Below, piece by piece: positions 5,085-12,809 of a stretch of DNA of 36,065 bases. The notes under the pieces are model-generated. The model made no database searches. It was not told the DNA's origin and was given only the letters and a program-made list of their open reading frames with translations. The DNA is from a virus. How positions within the stretch are numbered: the first letter of the stretch is position 1; each line of letters opens with the position of its first letter. The stretch covers positions 1-36,065 of the IMG/VR virus record IMGVR_UViG_3300027833_000005, one strand, 5' to 3'. The translations under genes and the position numbers were made by a program.

Positions 5085-5176
5085 TACTTGCGCCTTTTGT
5101 TAAGGCACTTACCAGCACGCTTACAAGCGGCAGGTGTAGGGCAACCCTTGCAGGTCTTGAATACTGGTGCTTTCAT
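5084..5176 (-). CDS. Cysteine-rich micro-protein, 30 aa
   Basis: A 30-residue product, MKAPVFKTCKGCPTPAACKR followed by AGKCLNKRRK. It has four cysteines in a CxxC-x5-C-x5-C arrangement and a very basic C-terminus, as expected for a tiny metal-binding or nucleic-acid-binding peptide. ATG at 5176 overlaps the TGA of the preceding gene (ATGA) and its TAA overlaps the next ATG, which strongly supports translation despite its size. Function unknown. Confidence 0.7.
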   Translation of the reverse strand: MKAPVFKTCKGCPTPAACKRAGKCLNKRRK

Positions 5177-6456
5177 TGGAGTAATCCTTGTTGTTGGGTT
5201 GGCTGTGTTGGCGAAGGCGAGATAATACCTTGCGATTGCGAGCCTTGGGCCATTGCTTGCTCTACATCCATTGTGGAGACACCCAGCATAGCTGCCGCGC
5301 CTGCGATACCGTACTTTTTCACAATGCTAATTAGCTTGTCATCAAACACAACAAAGTTTTGCGTAGCCGCGTCGGTCCCGCGCGAGCCAGCATCTAAGTA
5401 TTTTATGCCGGGGATGCCTTCAGCCTTCAGATAGTTAGATAATTCAGCAGAGGGGTTTTCAGCGCCACCTTGAAGTTTCTTACCCCCGATGTCCAACATC
5501 AAATCCTTGCCAGTATTCGTTTTATGGGGCAGTAATGGCAATATTGACTGACCCGTCAGTGCCTCATAGTCCGAAATGTATTTGGCAGCCTTTCCTGTCT
5601 GGCTACTCAATGAAGCATCATAATCAAGAAAGTCATCTGGGTTTGCGTCGATATTAACCTCGTACAGACTACCTGCGTTAAAGTTTCCTGTGCGCTTGTA
5701 TTCCTCCAACTGGGCTATCTTATCTCCTTGGATTTGAAGCTGCATGTTAAAGTTGCGCTCCGCACCCTTGAATGCACCAGCTTTATTGCGCTCAAGTAGA
5801 CCGTTTAACTTTTGTTGTGTCTCAAATATGGCGCGATCAACGTCACCACCCACGGCCTTAAGTGTGCGCTCTGCGCCTGCCCTGCCAAAACCTGACAATT
5901 CATCTCGATACTTTTTGGCCACATCCTCTGCCTCTGCAAAGTAAAGCCCGTGCCCGTAAGCCTGCGCACCCTCACCTGTGCCGATTGCGTCCATGCTGAA
6001 CTCGTCAAAATCATGCGGACTGCCGTGATAGGCTTTAATGCCTTGGGAAGTCTCACCAGCAGGCCGTAACCGCACGTTACCGCCGACAGTGCCAAGCGCA
6101 GTCGGATCAAACTCAACACGGTCAGCCAAGTCAGCCACTTTGCGACCAGCAGCCATGATTGGACGTGCAAGCGCATCACCAGCGCCCGGCACAAGGCCAA
6201 TGGCCGCGCCAGTACCCAACAGACCCGCAGCCATAAGTTCACCGCGAGAAGCAGCATCGTATGCCTCGCCCAGCGCTAACGCATCACCAATGCCGGGAAT
6301 AAAGTCTTGGGACGCCTGCACAGCCTTAACACTAGATGGCATCTCGTCACGATTGCGAGCAAGAAGGCCATCTTGATATAAATCCGCATATCCGCCAGAC
6401 GGAGCCGCCGTGCGGTAATCCTCCTGCGAAAACAGCCTGTCCCAAATGCTAGCCAT
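5173..6456 (-). CDS. Putative ADP-ribosyltransferase (ART-PolyVal-like), 427 aa
   Basis: The middle and end of this 427-residue protein match the pattern of the ADP-ribosyltransferase domain of phage and plasmid polyvalent proteins. It has AYHGSPHDFDEFSM (H144), GTGEGAQAYGHGLYFAE (159-175, with the conserved Y) and, near the end, GIPGIKYLD (348-355) and NFVVFDDKLISI (367-378). Such enzymes transfer ADP-ribose from NAD to a target; no target can be read here. Residues 50-105 are Gly/Ala-rich and amphipathic or hydrophobic, and the last 45 are Gln/Ser/Pro-rich. It follows TerL directly, in the late operon, so the protein may be packaged and injected, or may act late on the host; both are inference. 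A catalytic role is likely but unproven. Confidence 0.75.
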   Translation of the reverse strand: MASIWDRLFSQEDYRTAAPSGGYADLYQDGLLARNRDEMPSSVKAVQASQDFIPGIGDALALGEAYDAASRGELMAAGLLGTGAAIGLVPGAGDALARPIMAAGRKVADLADRVEFDPTALGTVGGNVRLRPAGETSQGIKAYHGSPHDFDEFSMDAIGTGEGAQAYGHGLYFAEAEDVAKKYRDELSGFGRAGAERTLKAVGGDVDRAIFETQQKLNGLLERNKAGAFKGAERNFNMQLQIQGDKIAQLEEYKRTGNFNAGSLYEVNIDANPDDFLDYDASLSSQTGKAAKYISDYEALTGQSILPLLPHKTNTGKDLMLDIGGKKLQGGAENPSAELSNYLKAEGIPGIKYLDAGSRGTDAATQNFVVFDDKLISIVKKYGIAGAAAMLGVSTMDVEQAMAQGSQSQGIISPSPTQPTQQQGLLQ

Positions 6457-7856
6457 CAGGCCACCCCTTTTAAATTCCGTCGCAGTGGCTTACCCCACGT
6501 TGACGCCTTGCCGCCGAGTGCCGTCGCAGCGTCAGACGCCAGCGTAAGGCACACAGCGTCCGCCAAGTCAGGTGAAGCTAACCCACGCTTACGCATGTCA
6601 TCCTTACCTTCAGCCTTCATCTTGCCGCTGCTGACGAAACTATACCTGATTGACGTTAATTCTGCAATAAGCTGCTCGTTACGTGGCAACTTAGCTCCGC
6701 GCTGCTCCAGCCAGCCACGCATCTTAAACCACAACTCAGCCCGCAAGTTCGTATATGTATCCTTCATACTTGGCGATTCCGCCACGTTAATGCCACGCAC
6801 AGGCAGGCCAAGCTCACGCAAACGATCCACAACGCCACCACCCATGCCAATAACATCAACCATAATCTCACTAGGCCGTATACTCATCGGCAAGCCATCA
6901 TACTCAGCCTTCACCCGACCCACAGTCTGCATCAAATCCAAACCCTGCCAACTGTTAATCTCAGTTATCGTATTACCCTGACGCTTGGCCAACGCCGTCT
7001 TGTCCGACCCAAACCGTGCAACGTCCAAACCCCAGATGACCGTCGCGTGGTCGTCAGGCTCAATGTCGCGATGCACCGCAGCATCAACCAAATGAAACGG
7101 CACAATCGTGTCGTCATCCGCCAGCGGAAACTCACCAAGCACGCGAATCCGATAAGCATTGCTCTCCTCGCCATACCGCAACTTCATCTCGTCGATAAAA
7201 TCACGCGATACCAACGGCGACTTAATACACGACCAATGGTGGCACTTCCAACTGCCCGACAGCCGCGTCTGCGTCTCAAAGAACGTACCACTTGACCGCG
7301 TAGGGTTAGACGCCAGCAACGTAACCGCACTGTGACCAGACATCGAACCAGCCGCCGCCTCAAAGACCTGTTCAGGCACACCCGACGCCTCGTCCACAAC
7401 CAACATAACATTCGCAGAGTGAACACCAGCCAACGCCTCTGGCGTCTCAGCCCGACTCGTCCGAGCCGAAATAAAACCCTCCGACGGCGCAGCAATCAAC
7501 GACACCCGGTCATTCTTCACGTCAAGTATCGGACGCAACGCCTCCGGCAACTCATTGATCCAACGCTTCAACTCAGCAAACAACGCATCAAACAACTGGC
7601 CACTGGTCGGCGCAGTCACCACAACCTTGAACGGAAACCGCGTCATCGCAAACCAAAGCATGGCCCACGAGAACGTCGTAGACTTCCCCGTACCATGCCC
7701 AGAGCGAACACTAATCTTGCGCTCACCATTGGCAATATCAACAAGCAACGCCTGCTGATAATCAAACGGCTCAGCACCCAAAATTTCACGCACAAACGCA
7801 ACTGGGTCATCCCTATACGTCGAAACAAAGTCTACTAACGGGTTCTCTTCACTCAT
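6456..7856 (-). CDS. terL: Terminase large subunit
   Basis: 466 residues from the ATG at 7856, which overlaps the end of TerS by 8 bp; upstream in-frame codons lie inside TerS. Walker A is RSGHGTGKST (51-60), Walker B LVVDEAS (152-158), followed by a coupling motif LLASNPTR (180-187). The RNaseH-like nuclease begins GLDVARFGSD (D278), with a second acid in IMVDVIGMGGG and a last in SPDLADAV. This is the ATP-driven motor that packages DNA into the prohead and cuts it. It shares a base with the next gene's start at 6456. The packaging mode cannot be told from sequence alone. Confidence 0.96.
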   Translation of the reverse strand: MSEENPLVDFVSTYRDDPVAFVREILGAEPFDYQQALLVDIANGERKISVRSGHGTGKSTTFSWAMLWFAMTRFPFKVVVTAPTSGQLFDALFAELKRWINELPEALRPILDVKNDRVSLIAAPSEGFISARTSRAETPEALAGVHSANVMLVVDEASGVPEQVFEAAAGSMSGHSAVTLLASNPTRSSGTFFETQTRLSGSWKCHHWSCIKSPLVSRDFIDEMKLRYGEESNAYRIRVLGEFPLADDDTIVPFHLVDAAVHRDIEPDDHATVIWGLDVARFGSDKTALAKRQGNTITEINSWQGLDLMQTVGRVKAEYDGLPMSIRPSEIMVDVIGMGGGVVDRLRELGLPVRGINVAESPSMKDTYTNLRAELWFKMRGWLEQRGAKLPRNEQLIAELTSIRYSFVSSGKMKAEGKDDMRKRGLASPDLADAVCLTLASDAATALGGKASTWGKPLRRNLKGVA

Positions 7857-8346
7857 CGTCGCCACCCTCAATCTCAACAATCGTCGGCGTCACGTTGCGC
7901 ATCTGACGCAAAGCCTGCAAGTGCAAATCTCCAATATTAACATTAACGACATCACCCTTCGGCTGGAACCTCGCCGCATCGTACACACCCGTCATCCACT
8001 TGCGCACACCAATCTGCTCTCTGGCCGCCGCTACGTGCGTCGTCGTCAAGTCAGGCCCAACCAAGTTATCCGCAATCTCCAACGCCTCGTCAGCCATCGC
8101 GTCAGCACGAACCTTGCGGCCCTCCGCCAGCGCACGCTTAAAGTCATCATTCGCGTTTAACTTACGGCTGACAAACGAACGATCCAAACCCAACTCATTA
8201 GCCAGCGTCGCAACAGTCCCGCCGTCAGCAACCCACTGAAAAATAAAATCAGGCCCAGTGATGCTCTCATTCGCCTCACGCGCAGCTATCTTTGCCATCG
8301 CCTCTATAGACGTAAACAACGCCCGCTTCTTTGGTTGACCAGCCAT
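7849..8346 (-). CDS. terS: Terminase small subunit-like protein
   Basis: 165 residues. A helix-turn-helix (GTVATLANELGLDRSFVSRKLN, residues about 49-70) is followed by an Ala/Glu-rich helical segment (RALAEGRKVRADAMADEALEIADNL) and a C-terminal HVAAAREQIGVRKWMTGVYD segment. This layout is typical of small terminase subunits, which bind the packaging site and recruit TerL. It is the first gene of the late leftward unit, after more than 400 bp of non-coding DNA that holds candidate promoter and packaging elements. It overlaps terL by 8 bp. Confidence 0.9.
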   Translation of the reverse strand: MAGQPKKRALFTSIEAMAKIAAREANESITGPDFIFQWVADGGTVATLANELGLDRSFVSRKLNANDDFKRALAEGRKVRADAMADEALEIADNLVGPDLTTTHVAAAREQIGVRKWMTGVYDAARFQPKGDVVNVNIGDLHLQALRQMRNVTPTIVEIEGGDDE

Positions 8347-8471
8347 GTTTGCTCCAAGTTTTCAAAAATTTTTCTGACCGTAACATTATTTTTTCATTGA
8401 GGGTAGGGCATTGGTTTACTCACGTCTGATGCGGTTTTCTTGGGAATTAGTGCGTGAGATTGTACACACAC

Positions 8472-8502
8472 ACCCCCCGCCGAAAGCCGAGGTCGGGGGG
8501 GG
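8472..8502. other. GC-rich hairpin next to terS, candidate packaging or leader structure
   Basis: ACCCCCCG at 8472-8479 can pair with CGGGGGG at 8494-8500, with an inner CC/GG pair. Eight consecutive G occupy 8495-8502. There is no U-tract on either strand, so it is not a standard terminator. It lies 130 bp upstream of terS, within the leader of the late transcript. A packaging (cos/pac) or leader-RNA role is speculative. Confidence 0.35.
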
Positions 8503-8516
8503 TATCAGAATACCCC
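8499..8516. promoter_or_regulatory. 18-bp palindromic operator-like site, copy 1
   Basis: GGGGTATCAGAATACCCC: perfect 7-bp arms (GGGGTAT/ATACCCC) around CAGA. A related 18-mer lies at 8646-8663 (GGGGTACTATGATACCCG). The two bracket the candidate late promoter. Probably sites for a dimeric regulator; the protein is unknown. Confidence 0.55.
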
Positions 8517-8557
8517 AAATCGGGCCAGATCGACGCGAATGACCTATAATCACCATT

Positions 8558-8586
8558 ATGTTAATAAACGGATTCAATGATATCAA
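8558..8586 (-). promoter_or_regulatory. Candidate sigma70-type promoter for the late operon
   Basis: On the leftward strand TTGATA (8586-8581) is followed after exactly 17 nt by TAACAT (8563-8558), matching 5 and 4 of the 6 consensus bases. Transcription would begin near 8551, giving a leader of about 205 nt before terS. The flanking palindromes make regulation by a dimeric protein likely. Not proven; AT-rich DNA gives chance matches. Confidence 0.35.
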
Positions 8587-8645
8587 TGACTTAGCCAAAC
8601 TGGACTTATCATCAGATATGATTTCGCATAATGTTGACTGATTGT

Positions 8646-8663
8646 GGGGTACTATGATACCCG
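8646..8663. promoter_or_regulatory. 18-bp palindromic operator-like site, copy 2
   Basis: GGGGTACTATGATACCCG contains GGGTA/TACCC arms and matches the element at 8499-8516 at 13 of 18 positions, including all outer bases but the last. The centre-to-centre distance is 147 bp, about 14 helical turns, which would suit DNA looping. Confidence 0.5.
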
Positions 8664-8751
8664 CGCGCACATGTATGTGAGCAGCGTTGCTGTGCGTCAG
8701 CGCACCTTCAGCTCATGCCAGCGCATTAGCCAACTTATCAGCCGCTTATGC

Positions 8752-8775
8752 AAACGTACAACATCCTGTACGTTT
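8752..8775. terminator. Hairpin at the end of the 71-aa gene
   Basis: AAACGTACA (8752-8760) and TGTACGTTT (8767-8775) are exact reverse complements around ACATCC. It overlaps the stop codon of the leftward gene ending at 8774. There is no U-run, so any terminator function would be weak or protein-assisted; it may simply protect the 3' end of the early transcript. Confidence 0.4.
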
Positions 8776-8989
8776 ACTGCACTCGCCCATTTCCCCTCAT
8801 CACGTCAAGTATCATCTCATCCGCATCCATTACTGCATATTGGTACTGCTCACGCATGTGCATCAGCACGCTTGCGAGTGCTGACATTACAACCAGCGGA
8901 TCGTCGCCTTCATCGTCAACGAGGTATTGCGCCTCGGCAAACAGGTCCAACGACAGGTTAATCGTGCGCTGCTTATCGTCATCAGTCAT
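8774..8989 (-). CDS. Hypothetical acidic helical protein, 71 aa
   Basis: 71 residues, MTDDDKQRTINLSLDLFAEA then QYLVDDEGDDPLVVMSALASVLMHMREQ and a DADEMILDVM tail. It is predicted to be almost all helix and acidic. An AAGGTG ribosome-binding site precedes the ATG at 8989. It is the last gene of the leftward early unit. Sequence and position suggest a small regulatory or antagonist protein of the early phase, but nothing identifies a function. Confidence 0.7.
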   Translation of the reverse strand: MTDDDKQRTINLSLDLFAEAQYLVDDEGDDPLVVMSALASVLMHMREQYQYAVMDADEMILDVMRGNGRVQ

Positions 8990-9110
8990 CGTATCACCTT
9001 ACAAAAATGGCCCCAGCATTACGCCGGAGCCTTAGTTGAGACAGTGCAGGCCACAGGAGAGCCGGGAGAACACAAACACCTGCACAAGCCAAGCCTACGA
9101 CCAGCGCCCG

Positions 9111-9704
9111 CTAAAAGTCAAGCGTGTCATCTAACGATGTTGGCGTGTACCTCGTCACCTTCGCATCTGGGAACGCATCAGTGACCTTGTTGACGGCTGC
9201 CATCATGTCCTGCCACTGGTTCTCCATCATCGCGCAGACATCTGACACATGGTAAACCAGCCACGTTGGCCAGCGCTGGCGTATGGCTGACATTGAGCCA
9301 CTGATAACGAAGCAATACACCTTACCGCCACGCTCACACAGCACGCCATCCACAGCGGGCGGCTGATGGCCGCTTGCCCTCGCGTTCACGTCCATAACCT
9401 CTAGCGCTTTCATCAGGCTCTGTGCCGCCGCTACAGCCAGCTCAGCGTCACTCACGCGCATCGCATAGTCTAACTCATCCTTCAGCTCCCTGTATCTCAC
9501 CGCGTAAGCTGGCGGCACACAATCGACCAGCGTATCACCCCACACAGCCACTGAGCGTGCTGACGCGGCCACGTACGGCCTGACAGCAGCATACACCAGC
9601 GGAGAGTATGTGTGTGCGTCTGCTTCCCGCTTAAACGTGCCACGCTCTGCCATCGCCTTTTTAGCTGCCGCTGACTTTGGTTTCGCTTTAGTTGCTTTTG
9701 CCAT
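9111..9704 (-). CDS. Hypothetical protein, 197 aa, with basic N-terminus
   Basis: 197 residues. The first 30 are Lys/Ala-rich (MAKATKAKPKSAAAKKAMAE), like a DNA-binding tail. A mixed alpha/beta body with several Trp follows (IRQRWPTWLVYHVSD, MMENQWQDMMAAV), and the end is acidic (SLDDTLDF). ATG at 9704 follows GGGGATACA. It is preceded by the non-coding inverted-repeat region and followed by about 120 bp before the 71-residue gene. No family recognised; early-phase DNA-associated protein is a guess. Confidence 0.75.
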   Translation of the reverse strand: MAKATKAKPKSAAAKKAMAERGTFKREADAHTYSPLVYAAVRPYVAASARSVAVWGDTLVDCVPPAYAVRYRELKDELDYAMRVSDAELAVAAAQSLMKALEVMDVNARASGHQPPAVDGVLCERGGKVYCFVISGSMSAIRQRWPTWLVYHVSDVCAMMENQWQDMMAAVNKVTDAFPDAKVTRYTPTSLDDTLDF

Positions 9705-9835: not shown

Positions 9836-9840
9836 TTCAC

Positions 9841-9860
9841 TGGCGCTGGCTGGCGCTGGC
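9841..9860. repeat. Tandem 10-bp duplication TGGCGCTGGC x2
   Basis: Two exact head-to-tail copies of TGGCGCTGGC. With the preceding CAC it forms CACTGGCGCT, nine of ten bases of the CACTGGCGCG arm found six times downstream, so it may be a degenerate seventh site. Confidence 0.6.
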
Positions 9861-9928
9861 TCGCAGTTTAAATAATAGCGTGTGACGGCTTTATGCCGAC
9901 ACTCATTTTAACGTAGTGCCTGAATGGG

Positions 9929-9955
9929 TTGACAGTTGCGCGCCAGTGGTATAAT
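9929..9955 (+). promoter_or_regulatory. Consensus promoter with operator arm inside its spacer
   Basis: TTGACA (9929-9934) and TATAAT (9950-9955) both match the sigma70 consensus fully. The spacer is 15 bp, shorter than the optimal 17, and contains the arm CGCGCCAGTG (9939-9948). A protein bound there would block polymerase, or could twist the short spacer into register. The promoter points right, against the surrounding leftward genes, and reads to the terminator at 10001-10024. Confidence 0.65.
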
Positions 9956-9989
9956 TTCCGGAGGAAATTCAGGTTTCAGCACTGGCGCG
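9939..9989. repeat. Inverted pair A of CGCGCCAGTG / CACTGGCGCG
   Basis: Arms at 9939-9948 and 9980-9989, separated by 31 bp. The left arm lies inside the promoter spacer and the right arm within the first 30 nt of the predicted transcript. Confidence 0.85.
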
Positions 9990-10024
9990 TTTGCCCACAC
10001 AGCTCCCATTCGGGGGCTTTTTTT
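9962..10024 (+). ncRNA. Putative short regulatory RNA of about 63 nt
   Basis: Delimited by the consensus promoter at 9929-9955 and the intrinsic terminator at 10001-10024. No start codon lies within it. It contains one CACTGGCGCG arm (9980-9989) and a purine-rich GGAGG close to its 5' end (9960-9964), which may instead lie just at the start site. The 5' end is estimated from the promoter. It would be antisense to the transcript that crosses this region from the right. Confidence 0.4.
10001..10024 (+). terminator. Intrinsic (rho-independent) terminator
   Basis: AGCTCCC (10001-10007), loop ATTC, GGGGGCT (10012-10018), giving a 7-bp GC-rich stem with one G-T pair. It runs into seven T (10018-10024). 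The T-run defines rightward polarity, opposite to the flanking genes. Confidence 0.8.
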
Positions 10025-10043
10025 ATGCCCTATTCAAACGCAA

Positions 10044-10077
10044 GCGCGCCAGTGAAATAACCCACTGGCGCGCTTTT
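10044..10077 (+). terminator. Perfect 12-bp hairpin, inverted pair B, possible terminator
   Basis: AGCGCGCCAGTG (10043-10054) pairs exactly with CACTGGCGCGCT (10063-10074) around an 8-nt AAATAACC loop, and TTTT follows on the plus strand. It is both the tightest of the three inverted pairs and a plausible second rightward terminator; as an operator it would present two abutting half-sites. Confidence 0.6.
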
Positions 10078-10078
10078 A

Positions 10079-10098
10079 TGTCAACGTATTCAGGCACT
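10079..10098 (-). promoter_or_regulatory. Inverted copy of the upstream promoter region
   Basis: TGTCAACGTATTCAGGCACT is the reverse complement of 9915-9934 at 18 of 20 positions. It carries TTGACA on the leftward strand (10084-10079), followed by a CGCGCCAGTG arm as in the rightward promoter. No good -10 lies at the right distance (best TATTTC or TTATTT), so leftward activity is uncertain. Confidence 0.5.
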
Positions 10099-10107
10099 TG
10101 CAAACTT

Positions 10108-10148
10108 GCGCGCCAGTGAACATTTTACCCGTTTCAGCACTGGCGCGC
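10108..10148. repeat. Inverted pair C of CGCGCCAGTG / CACTGGCGCG
   Basis: Arms GCGCGCCAGTG (10108-10118) and CACTGGCGCGC (10138-10148), with 19 bp between. The flank TTTCAG before the right arm is shared with pair A (9974-9979), so pairs A and C look like duplicates. Confidence 0.85.
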
Positions 10149-10168: not shown

Positions 10169-10492
10169 TTACTCAATCACATCAAAGTCGTCATCGTCGC
10201 CATTTACCCGGCTTTGCAGTTCAGCGATAAACGCTGACATCGGTTCAATGGCTTTCTCGTATTTAAACTGCGCCTTGTTTTTGTGCGGCCAGAAGTTCAC
10301 CTCAACCTCACTGCCGTCGATCTCAATCATGCACTGTATGTGCCACGGGGACGCGTCATAGTTTGGCCAGTAGAAGTCCATATGCGTTTGTGCGTTGGCC
10401 CAGTCCGCCCAAGCCTGCACATTGTATTCCTGCTCCCAATCGCGCTTGGCGTAAAAGCAATCCGTCCAATCGCCTGTCCATTCAACTCTCAT
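10169..10492 (-). CDS. Hypothetical Trp-rich protein, 107 aa
   Basis: 107 residues, MRVEWTGDWTDCFYAKRDWE with eight Trp in the first 50 residues or so, then IQCMIEIDGSEVEVNFWPHKNKAQF and an acidic tail (VNGDDDDFDVIE). The ATG at 10492 is 1 nt beyond the stop of the PrimPol-helicase gene and preceded by GGGGAG, so it is co-translated with it. It acts presumably in the early or replication phase. No family recognised. Confidence 0.75.
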   Translation of the reverse strand: MRVEWTGDWTDCFYAKRDWEQEYNVQAWADWANAQTHMDFYWPNYDASPWHIQCMIEIDGSEVEVNFWPHKNKAQFKYEKAIEPMSAFIAELQSRVNGDDDDFDVIE

Positions 10493-10493
10493 C

Positions 10494-12809
10494 TCACTGC
10501 TCCCCTACTCTGCTGACCGACTGCACGCCCTTGCGCTCCTTGCGCTGGCTTGGACTGTGATACGTGATTTCCTCTAGCAAGCCCGTGTCCATCCACTCCT
10601 TGATGATGCCACGCGCCTGCACGGCTGACTTGTTGTCCGCAGCCTTCGGGAAGTTGAAGTTGGTGACGACTGTGCCAGCAAACCTTGTTCTGTCCTGTGG
10701 GCGTGATGAAAACATTTCACCCGTCTCTGGGCCAGCGTTGATAAGTGACAGCATACTGTTGACGATTGGCGTCGTCATGCCCTCCCACTTATCAGGCAGC
10801 TTATACTCGCAGCAAACGCCCACGCTCTCGCCATTGGCCAGCGTGACTGACACCATGCGACGGTAGACGCCTTTCTCTGCTGGCGGAGCCAAGTTTGCTT
10901 TGCCATTGTCCACGCGGAACAGGCCGATTACGTCATCTGGCTCCAGCCCCAGCCTGTTCAGTTCCTCATCTGTTAATTTATTTACAACTCTTGCTGACCT
11001 CGCTGCGCCGATGAGTGAACCTGCGCCACGCACTGAGTCAACCGTGGCTGCCTCGCCGTTTGATTTGCGGACGTGGTGAATCAAGTGGACCGCCGCGCCA
11101 GTTTCGCGTGCCAGCCTGCGCAGCATGGCCACGACGGCTTGAATGCTGCTGTTGGAGTTTTCGTTGACTGCGTGCGTACTGATAAACGGGTCAATGATGA
11201 CTGTGCCAATGGCATTGTCGTTGATCTTGTCGCGCATAAAGTTTAGCAGCGCGTCGTTCTGCACGATGCCCTCACGCCCCTCGGCGGCCAGCATGATTGA
11301 AATTGTGTCTTCGCCGTCCATGAACAGCTTTCCTGCGATTTCCTCATGCTGGATGCCGTAATGCTTCATGGCCGCTGCCAGTCGAATTTGCATTTCGGTC
11401 AGGTCATCCTCTAGGTTTACCAACCAAACAGATGTCGGCTCATGTACCTTTTCGCCCAGCAATGGCCGACCCGTCACGATTGCCAGTGCCTCGACCATAG
11501 CCAACGATGTCTTGCCGATACCACCTGCCGACGCCGTGACTGTCAGGAAACCACGAATATACGTGCTGCCATAAATCCAGCGGCGACGCGGCAATGTGGC
11601 CTCGTCAATGCGCGAGACAGGCGTTGGCCATTCCTGCGGCTTGTCGTCGTCGTCAATCATATCTGACTTCACCTCTGGCAGTGTGTGCTGTTCGTCTGGG
11701 ATATAGTCAAAGTCATCTAGGTCTTCACTGACGGGCGCGTCGCTGATTTGCTTGTTGACCTGTTCGAACGGACTTGGCTTTAACTCTTGCCCGTAAGTCC
11801 TTACGGCGCTTGTAAAATCACCAGAGTGGTCAAAGTAAACGTACAGGTCAAATGCGTCGCCCCAGCAGTAGTTTTCCTTGCCTGTACCAACGCCCGCAGC
11901 CACGTCGCTGCCCGACATGCTGACCCAGTAATCGCCAAAGCATTTCGTCGCGTGGCTGCCAGATGACTGCATTGGGCTTTTGTAGCTGTCGGCTACACCT
12001 TGGCGCTCATAGCCATTGGCGAGCAACATATCCTCGACAGTGTGACGCGCGTTGAACTCGTCAACTGGGTCAACATTGTCGGGATACTGCTCACGCTTTG
12101 CCAGCCTGTCTGCGGCGCGGCGCTCACGGTCAGCGGCAGCACGCTTGGCGGCCATCTCTTCGTTCTTGCGGCGGAACACAACTGTCGCATTGATCTGACC
12201 CGTCTTGGGTTGCAGAAAACCTTGGCCACGCTCCTTGCGGCTTTGGTAAAATAGCGGCTCACCGTCAAAACGCCTGTCCGCTGGCACGTTTGGCAGGTAA
12301 ATTGGCTGACCTGTGCGCGACAGCACATCATCGCACGTAATGTTGTGCTTAGTGCGTAGCTGCTCAAACAGTGCCAACTGGTAGTCAGCGTAATCAACGC
12401 CCAACAGCGGCTCGGCCAGCGGGATTAGCACGCGCCACTTCTTGTTGTCCTCAGTTGCGGAGCTGGATGAGTAGTAAAGCGCAGATGCGTTGCCTGTCAC
12501 GTCCTGGACGGCGTTATGAAGCGTGTCGAGCGACGGATTGCCCTCGTCAACGTCGATGGCCATCATGTGATACTCGCCGTTCAGACGTTGCGCCTCGTGG
12601 TTTCGGCCATCATGTTCGCGGTATGAGCTGCATATGACAAAACTAGCGGAGGTTTTGTCCAACGCTGTCGGTGCCTCAACAAGACGCCCAATTTCCTTGA
12701 GCGTGATGCCGTCGTACATCGCTGTGTTATTATGAACTTTTGTGTCCCGCGAGCCGTGCGCAAGTAGCATGGCTGGCTTGTCTGTCGGTGTGGTTTTTGT
12801 TATGCTCAT
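10494..12809 (-). CDS. Primase-polymerase / RepA-type helicase fusion
   Basis: 771 residues with two parts. Residues about 60-180 look like an archaeo-eukaryotic primase core: a DxD pair in MMAIDVDEG (D86, D88), YYSSSSAT (112-119) and KWRVLIPL (124-131). After a charged linker, residues about 395-650 form a RecA-like (AAA_25/RepA) ATPase, with Walker A ASAGGIGKTS (426-435), LVNLEDDL (463-470), Walker B TVIIDPF and VHLIHHVRK. It would unwind DNA and make primers at the phage origin. With no DNA polymerase gene seen, the host replicase presumably extends the primers. An AGGTC site precedes the ATG at 12809. Confidence 0.85.
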   Translation of the reverse strand: MSITKTTPTDKPAMLLAHGSRDTKVHNNTAMYDGITLKEIGRLVEAPTALDKTSASFVICSSYREHDGRNHEAQRLNGEYHMMAIDVDEGNPSLDTLHNAVQDVTGNASALYYSSSSATEDNKKWRVLIPLAEPLLGVDYADYQLALFEQLRTKHNITCDDVLSRTGQPIYLPNVPADRRFDGEPLFYQSRKERGQGFLQPKTGQINATVVFRRKNEEMAAKRAAADRERRAADRLAKREQYPDNVDPVDEFNARHTVEDMLLANGYERQGVADSYKSPMQSSGSHATKCFGDYWVSMSGSDVAAGVGTGKENYCWGDAFDLYVYFDHSGDFTSAVRTYGQELKPSPFEQVNKQISDAPVSEDLDDFDYIPDEQHTLPEVKSDMIDDDDKPQEWPTPVSRIDEATLPRRRWIYGSTYIRGFLTVTASAGGIGKTSLAMVEALAIVTGRPLLGEKVHEPTSVWLVNLEDDLTEMQIRLAAAMKHYGIQHEEIAGKLFMDGEDTISIMLAAEGREGIVQNDALLNFMRDKINDNAIGTVIIDPFISTHAVNENSNSSIQAVVAMLRRLARETGAAVHLIHHVRKSNGEAATVDSVRGAGSLIGAARSARVVNKLTDEELNRLGLEPDDVIGLFRVDNGKANLAPPAEKGVYRRMVSVTLANGESVGVCCEYKLPDKWEGMTTPIVNSMLSLINAGPETGEMFSSRPQDRTRFAGTVVTNFNFPKAADNKSAVQARGIIKEWMDTGLLEEITYHSPSQRKERKGVQSVSRVGEQ

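Follow-up and report, generated by a model that had tools for sequence, protein, structure and literature searches.

The window, that is, the whole stretch of 36,065 bases of viral DNA that we have analyzed, has a 127-base direct terminal repeat. It contains a gene coding for a putative primase-helicase of 771 amino acids (10494–12809, minus strand), with SSB, exonuclease and resolvase genes upstream. The only Pfam match in the helicase is AAA_25, at residues 396–584, which corresponds to a RepA-type helicase, and the helicase family profile matches RSF1010 RepA (1g8y) with E = 1.2e-5. The N-terminus has no Pfam match, either to Toprim or to the AEP catalytic domain of PrimPol primases. Weak PHROG helicase/primase matches at residues 79–181, together with a DVD motif seen by eye, suggest that it is a primase. 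The C-terminal domain, residues about 680–771 (nt 10497–10772, minus strand), is the part of the protein that we propose as an iteron reader. Its structural model has a low confidence (pLDDT 52) and reaches Z values up to 4.8 against solved structures with VIA-align. The domain is probably a winged helix; as it is poorly modelled, this is only likely.

The array of repeats described below lies 3' of this gene, with one small ORF in between, ORF Y (10169–10492, minus strand). On its far side the array is bordered by ORF X (9111–9704, minus strand), in the window as in most relatives. The original prediction placed the repeats in a non-coding region between replication genes. The region is in fact intergenic, between ORF Y and ORF X, and the primase-helicase gene adjoins ORF Y, but neither ORF has a family match.

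Other features of the neighbouring genes may be mentioned. The protein encoded at 5173–6456, which adjoins the terminase gene, contains YHGSPHDFDEF...YGHGLYFAE, which by eye recalls an ADP-ribosyltransferase-type domain. The region 6456–9704, with putative terminase genes and ORF X, has a fourfold-site GC skew of 0.43–0.63, unlike most of its neighbours. GC skew, including that of fourfold sites, does not mark any origin.

The repeats and the elements found among them

Six exact copies of CGCGCCAGTG are found, and the window contains no further exact copies. They form three inverted pairs: pair A with iterons 1 (9939–9948, plus strand) and 2 (9980–9989, minus strand), pair B with iterons 3 (10045–10054, plus) and 4 (10063–10072, minus), and pair C with iterons 5 (10109–10118, plus) and 6 (10138–10147, minus). 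The loops of these pairs are 31, 8 and 19 nt long. In both pair A and pair C, TTTCAG precedes the second arm, as part of GTTTCAGCACTGGCGCG at 9973 and 10131. A copy with one mismatch, AGCGCCAGTG, lies outside the array (9838–9847, minus strand), followed by more CTGGCGCTGG repeats; it is conserved in relatives, and its role is uncertain. The positions of the six copies, the three loops, the flank common to pairs A and C and the nine-of-ten relative agree with the original prediction. When the whole window was shuffled 60 times with its dinucleotides preserved, no 10-mer had more than two copies within 210 nt, compared with the six observed. All clusters of 9-mers (at least four within 350 nt) in the whole 36 kb are part of the iteron array.

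A larger inverted repeat of 20 bp, 90% identical, encloses pairs A and B. Its left arm is found at 9915–9934 (plus strand) and its right arm at 10079–10098 (minus strand, TGTCAACGTATTCAGGCACT on the plus strand). It includes the −35 element described next, and the right half of the array looks like the left half in inverted orientation.

A sigma-70-like promoter is found inside the array (9929–9955, plus strand). It is formed by TTGACA (9929–9934) and TATAAT (9950–9955), with iteron 1 in the spacer. The spacer is 15 nt long, and a stock promoter scan, which allowed spacers of 16–18, does not find this promoter. A palindrome, AATTTCC-GGA-GGAAATT (9953–9969), covers −10/+1 and is flanked by the two inverted iterons of pair A. 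An intrinsic terminator-like site is detected by a terminator scan at 10001–10025 (plus strand); promoter and terminator-like site, as read from the sequence, would yield an RNA of about 60 nt. With an iteron in the promoter spacer, the array may possibly have a local regulatory role as well.

The same cassette (TTGACA, arm in the spacer, −10 hexamer, palindrome) recurs in class II relatives and in L144, L154 and L155. L152, L153 and L143 have it too, but their spacer arm is more degenerate. Terminator-like sites downstream of the cassette are also found by eye in L143, L152 and L153. The two halves of the palindrome change together, with compensatory changes that were read by eye: It is AAATCTC-GGTA-GAGATTT in L003, L005, L006 and L154, and AATTTTCC-GTA-GGAAAATT in class II. 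The version of the palindrome is independent of the iteron. For example, L144 and L154 have GTGCGCCACTG in common and different palindromes.

Conservation and spread among relatives

A search at the DNA level gives no similar phage record, and no relative is found in the bacterial genomes searched. Scans with primase alignments give about 100 usable loci, 87 of them with enough sequence for a cluster test. In the close relatives L003–L006 the arms keep their places and have changed little (C or T at the first base, G or C at one inner base), and the position of iteron 1 is conserved. Iterons 2 to 6 are also conserved in relatives. Conservation of the arms had been proposed as a check on the original prediction, and they are kept. 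In class II, whose primase is 62% identical over its full length, the layout is the same and the word is TGCGTCACTG.

In 78 of the 87 relatives a significant 7-mer cluster follows the primase gene on its 3' side, at a distance of up to 1.4 kb. In the other nine no 7-mer cluster close to the gene is significant; among them, L143 and L151 have their words farther downstream, past other genes, and L155 and L156 retain pair A only. ORF Y lies between primase and array in most class I and class II loci, but not in L149, L150 and L154. In L149 and L150, which have no ORF Y in between, the array begins 14–17 nt past the primase stop, and in L018 the gene order is primase-array-Y-X. The array therefore follows the primase and not ORF Y.

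In class III the primase is common up to about residue 602, and the C-terminus is not. The words of this class are AATCGTA, CTATAAA, CTACATA, CTACAAA, GTATAAA, TCATACA, AACCCGAC, GTCCTAA and ATGTGAA. These arrays have up to 14 copies, and the promoter cassette is not seen by eye. The marine loci L162 and L168 have the word CCACACC. Direct and inverted copies are mixed in many relatives, with irregular spacing. The exact IHF consensus is present in 9 of 33 class III arrays compared with about 1.1 expected, a figure which comes from simple shuffles, with arrays that are not independent; it is absent from the window's array.

The inverted pairs allow another explanation, according to which the arms are maintained as hairpins, in RNA or as a cruciform (for example in a regulatory RNA or a set of terminators), and not as protein sites. 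The compensatory changes in the inner palindrome, and the RNA of about 60 nt to which the promoter and the terminator-like site would lead, would suit such a role. Pair A would not be transcribed as a hairpin from this promoter, since the RNA would start inside the palindrome, and Rfam gives no family match. The mixture of direct and inverted words at irregular distances in many relatives, and the fact that changes in the word follow the helicase domain (see below), make hairpins a very unlikely explanation.

A few additional observations on these loci are worth recording. An IHF-like element is present in class III arrays such as those of L076, L100 and L104; it is similar to TATCAATGGGTTA, and its other strand may be read as a −35-like TTGATA. 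In L195 (CRP-406), the region 3' of the primase gene (484–2277) has an array of GGCTGGAAAT with a central palindrome, and the C-terminus is another one, an HTH by eye. Small genes which by eye recall mobile genes of the AP2/HNH type are found beside or inside the origin region in several relatives: in L004 (8501–8848), where the insertion starts right after iteron 6, in L157, just past the primase stop, and in L136, about 380–640 nt past the stop.

The word and the helicase C-terminus change together

A clear case is found when L021 (class II) is compared with L023 and L026 (class III). Their DNA is about 90% identical up to about primase codon 340, and this level of identity resumes 55 bp before ORF X. 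Between those points helicase, C-terminus and array are unrelated: One block has been replaced. This comparison also bears on the proposal that the array, which is close to the terminase genes, serves in packaging (as a pac site) or in partition. A putative small terminase gene is in fact found about 1.6 kb away in the window (7849–8346). Nevertheless, the terminase region of L021 and L023 is 96% identical in DNA while their arrays are completely different, and the terminase of the CRP phages does not track the word either, which leaves a packaging or partition site as the most improbable of the explanations considered here.

The cultured roseophages CRP-811, CRP-821, CRP-823 and CRP-831 give a finer picture. 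The primases of CRP-823 and CRP-821 are 97–99% identical over residues 1–599, but only 58% over residues 640–679 and 65% over residues 700–719; their words are CTACAAA and GTATAAA, respectively. On the other hand, the C-termini of CRP-823 and CRP-811 are 95–100% identical and the word is the same, while other parts of the primase differ more. Among the CRP-823 genes compared, only the primase C-terminal domain clearly tracks the word (98% identity to CRP-811, 70% to CRP-821 and CRP-831). Most other genes show the opposite trend, and one phage HTH gene tracks the word weakly (97% compared with 92% and 81%).

These results may be set against the other reading of the original prediction, an operator array in which a phage regulator of transcription (RHH, double-HTH or another) binds the arms and controls the internal promoter. 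The sigma-70-like promoter whose spacer holds an arm, in the window's class and its kin, and the palindrome over −10/+1 speak in its favor. However, the exact copies in the window are all in one array, class III arrays reach 14 copies with no cassette seen by eye, and among the CRP phages it is the primase C-terminus that goes with the word, one HTH gene doing so weakly at most. The word of the window is also found in L004, yet the HTH protein there is just 67% identical to that of the window. We consider it quite improbable that the arms serve mainly as an operator. The reading that is strongly supported, by the covariation of word and C-terminus, is that of iterons of an origin used by the primase-helicase.

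A statistical comparison of 30 dereplicated class III initiators gives the same picture. The similarity of words is correlated with the identity of the recognition helix when the identity of primase and ATPase is taken into account (partial Mantel r 0.46, p 0.0005, a p-value which is just a guide since the lineages are related). The reverse partial Mantel tests on the same initiators give nothing. Out of about 150 alignment columns, those which best predict the word are 117, 122, 114, 111 and 118, with 119 close behind. The model of the class III C-terminal domain is a winged helix (pLDDT 84) whose helix alpha-3 corresponds to 116–129, so that the columns which predict the word lie in this helix and just before it. 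The solved structures nearest to this model are winged-helix domains: VIA-align places human ORC1 first (Z 8.3, rmsd 3.0, 82 residues aligned), and many winged-helix proteins are found at Z 7–8.3. Foldseek gives no significant match for the class III domain, and a sequence-profile search of the PDB with either C-terminal domain gives nothing. Profile comparison detects no homology between the window-type and the class III C-terminus, so the common role of the two types rests on their place and on the covariation. Since the word and the C-terminal tail are swapped together, a protein-DNA recognition code should be readable by comparison.

The association extends to distant helicases. The helicase of Microcystis phage Mae-Yong1326-1 is 30.6% identical to that of the window over helicase and C-terminus, and the wings are similar (YRDVDQRKERLGV compared with YHSPSQRKERKGV). 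Five copies of GCGCCAGTC are found 3' of its helicase gene, around a palindrome, and none elsewhere in 7.1 kb. This is nearly the word of the window, a match which rests on one phage. Plasmids from the alphaproteobacteria Microvirga, Rhodoplanes and Methylobacterium have helicases that are 35–38% identical. Their helicase genes are followed on the 3' side by arrays whose word is CCCCACC or GCGTCACC, again around a central palindrome. Proteins of the plasmid "helicase RepA family" match the window helicase at 31%. In three of four plasmids a separate toprim primase gene lies beside the helicase gene: The array goes with helicase and C-terminus, and not with one kind of primase. The gene of a related helicase in Rhizobium phage RHph_X2_26 (L200) is not followed by any array in the next 450 nt on its 3' side; this phage must have its origin in a different place, or an origin of a different kind. 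We also note that L196, L198 and L199 are plasmids with separate genes for a toprim primase and a RepA-type helicase and with repeats 3' of the helicase gene, that L197 has a terminase gene nearby, and that some of L196–L199 may be phage-plasmids.

A proposed origin and its relation to known systems

What sequence comparison establishes is an array that is conserved, linked to the helicase C-terminus and exchanged together with it as one unit. From these results it appears very likely that the array is the replication origin of the phage, with the arms as iterons read by the C-terminal domain of the adjacent primase-helicase. We infer the following mechanism. The iteron core GCGYCAST would be bound directly by the C-terminal, probably winged-helix, domain. 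Several copies of the initiator, placed at inverted iterons around the central palindrome, would load the RepA-type hexameric helicase, and the inverted arrangement would probably lead to two opposed helicase rings. The helicase would open the DNA, and the N-terminal primase would then prime it. In the window's class, an initiator on iteron 1 should shut off the short transcript from the origin promoter, since this promoter would be blocked when the arm in its spacer is bound. The short transcript may help in the opening of the origin or in priming.

Several known systems may be compared with this proposal. In staphylococci, the C-terminal domain of SaPI Rep binds iterons directly downstream of its own gene, and SCCmec Cch2 acts in the same mode with its own repeats (PMC7581432). 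The loci described here are similar to SaPI in having short iterons 3' of the initiator-helicase gene (in the 78 relatives mentioned above), and also in an iteron specificity which, judged here by comparison, would be set by the C-terminal domain. They differ from SaPI and SCC, whose helicases are of the DUF927 or D5/Primase_Cterm type, in having an AAA_25/RSF1010-RepA-like helicase, and the window's class differs from SaPI in having a promoter inside the array. The alpha protein of P4 combines primase, helicase and winged helix in one protein, and binds origin repeats (PMC4234260, citing Ziegelin and Lanka 1995 and Yeo 2002). It has a Toprim primase (PMC4234260) and a P4-type SF3 helicase, whereas here the helicase is RepA-like and there is no Toprim match; unlike P4, a single array is found here.

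In RSF1010 (IncQ) the work is split over RepC, RepA and RepB', and RepC reads the iterons (PMC4234260). Our loci have in common with its oriV a RepA-type hexameric helicase, iterons, a hairpin-like element at the origin and a primase partner. The difference is that the reader appears to be the C-terminus of the helicase itself, with which the word goes, and that no clear link of the word to another gene is seen. RSF1010 has ssi hairpins for its primase; here a palindrome with compensatory changes is found between inverted iterons. ORF904 of pRN1 is also a primase-helicase-winged helix protein, with the origin 3' of its own gene (PMC4234260). That origin is a 100-nt stem-loop without iterons and the helicase belongs to SF3, unlike the loci studied here, where iterons are present. 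Finally, the window resembles the CRP-822-type roseophage family, which has a related replication module and gene order, and whose cultured hosts are Roseobacter. The main text of the paper on this family (PMC12629253) does not mention origin of replication, iteron, repeat or primase. The proposed mode would therefore be like that of SaPI Rep and P4 alpha, but with a helicase similar to RSF1010 RepA. The literature search covered open-access papers, and an earlier report is possible.

A wider reading, to which we give about an even chance, is that many marine phages and phage-like plasmids have a RepA-type helicase with an exchangeable winged-helix origin reader and a code in which a few residues of the recognition helix specify the word, coupled in the window's class to a promoter. 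As part of this joint reading, S or A at the residue before the helix tyrosine would correspond to TAT or TAC, respectively, and N, T or G/S at the second residue after the tyrosine would correspond to TATAAA, TACATA or TACAAA.

The interest of the system lies in this readable covariation of recognition helix and iteron, and in the cultured phages where it may be tested. For a whole group of marine phages, the sequence by itself may suffice to locate the replication origin. The natural swaps provide ready pairs of protein and site for measuring how winged helices read DNA. The proposed origin would show that the origin reader can be part of a RepA-type ring helicase itself, with no need to assume a separate initiator or loader. 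It would also show that origin specificity is exchanged between phages as a cassette, plausibly as a way out of competition with co-infecting kin. If this is true, a natural and readable specificity code lets phages change the identity of their origin.
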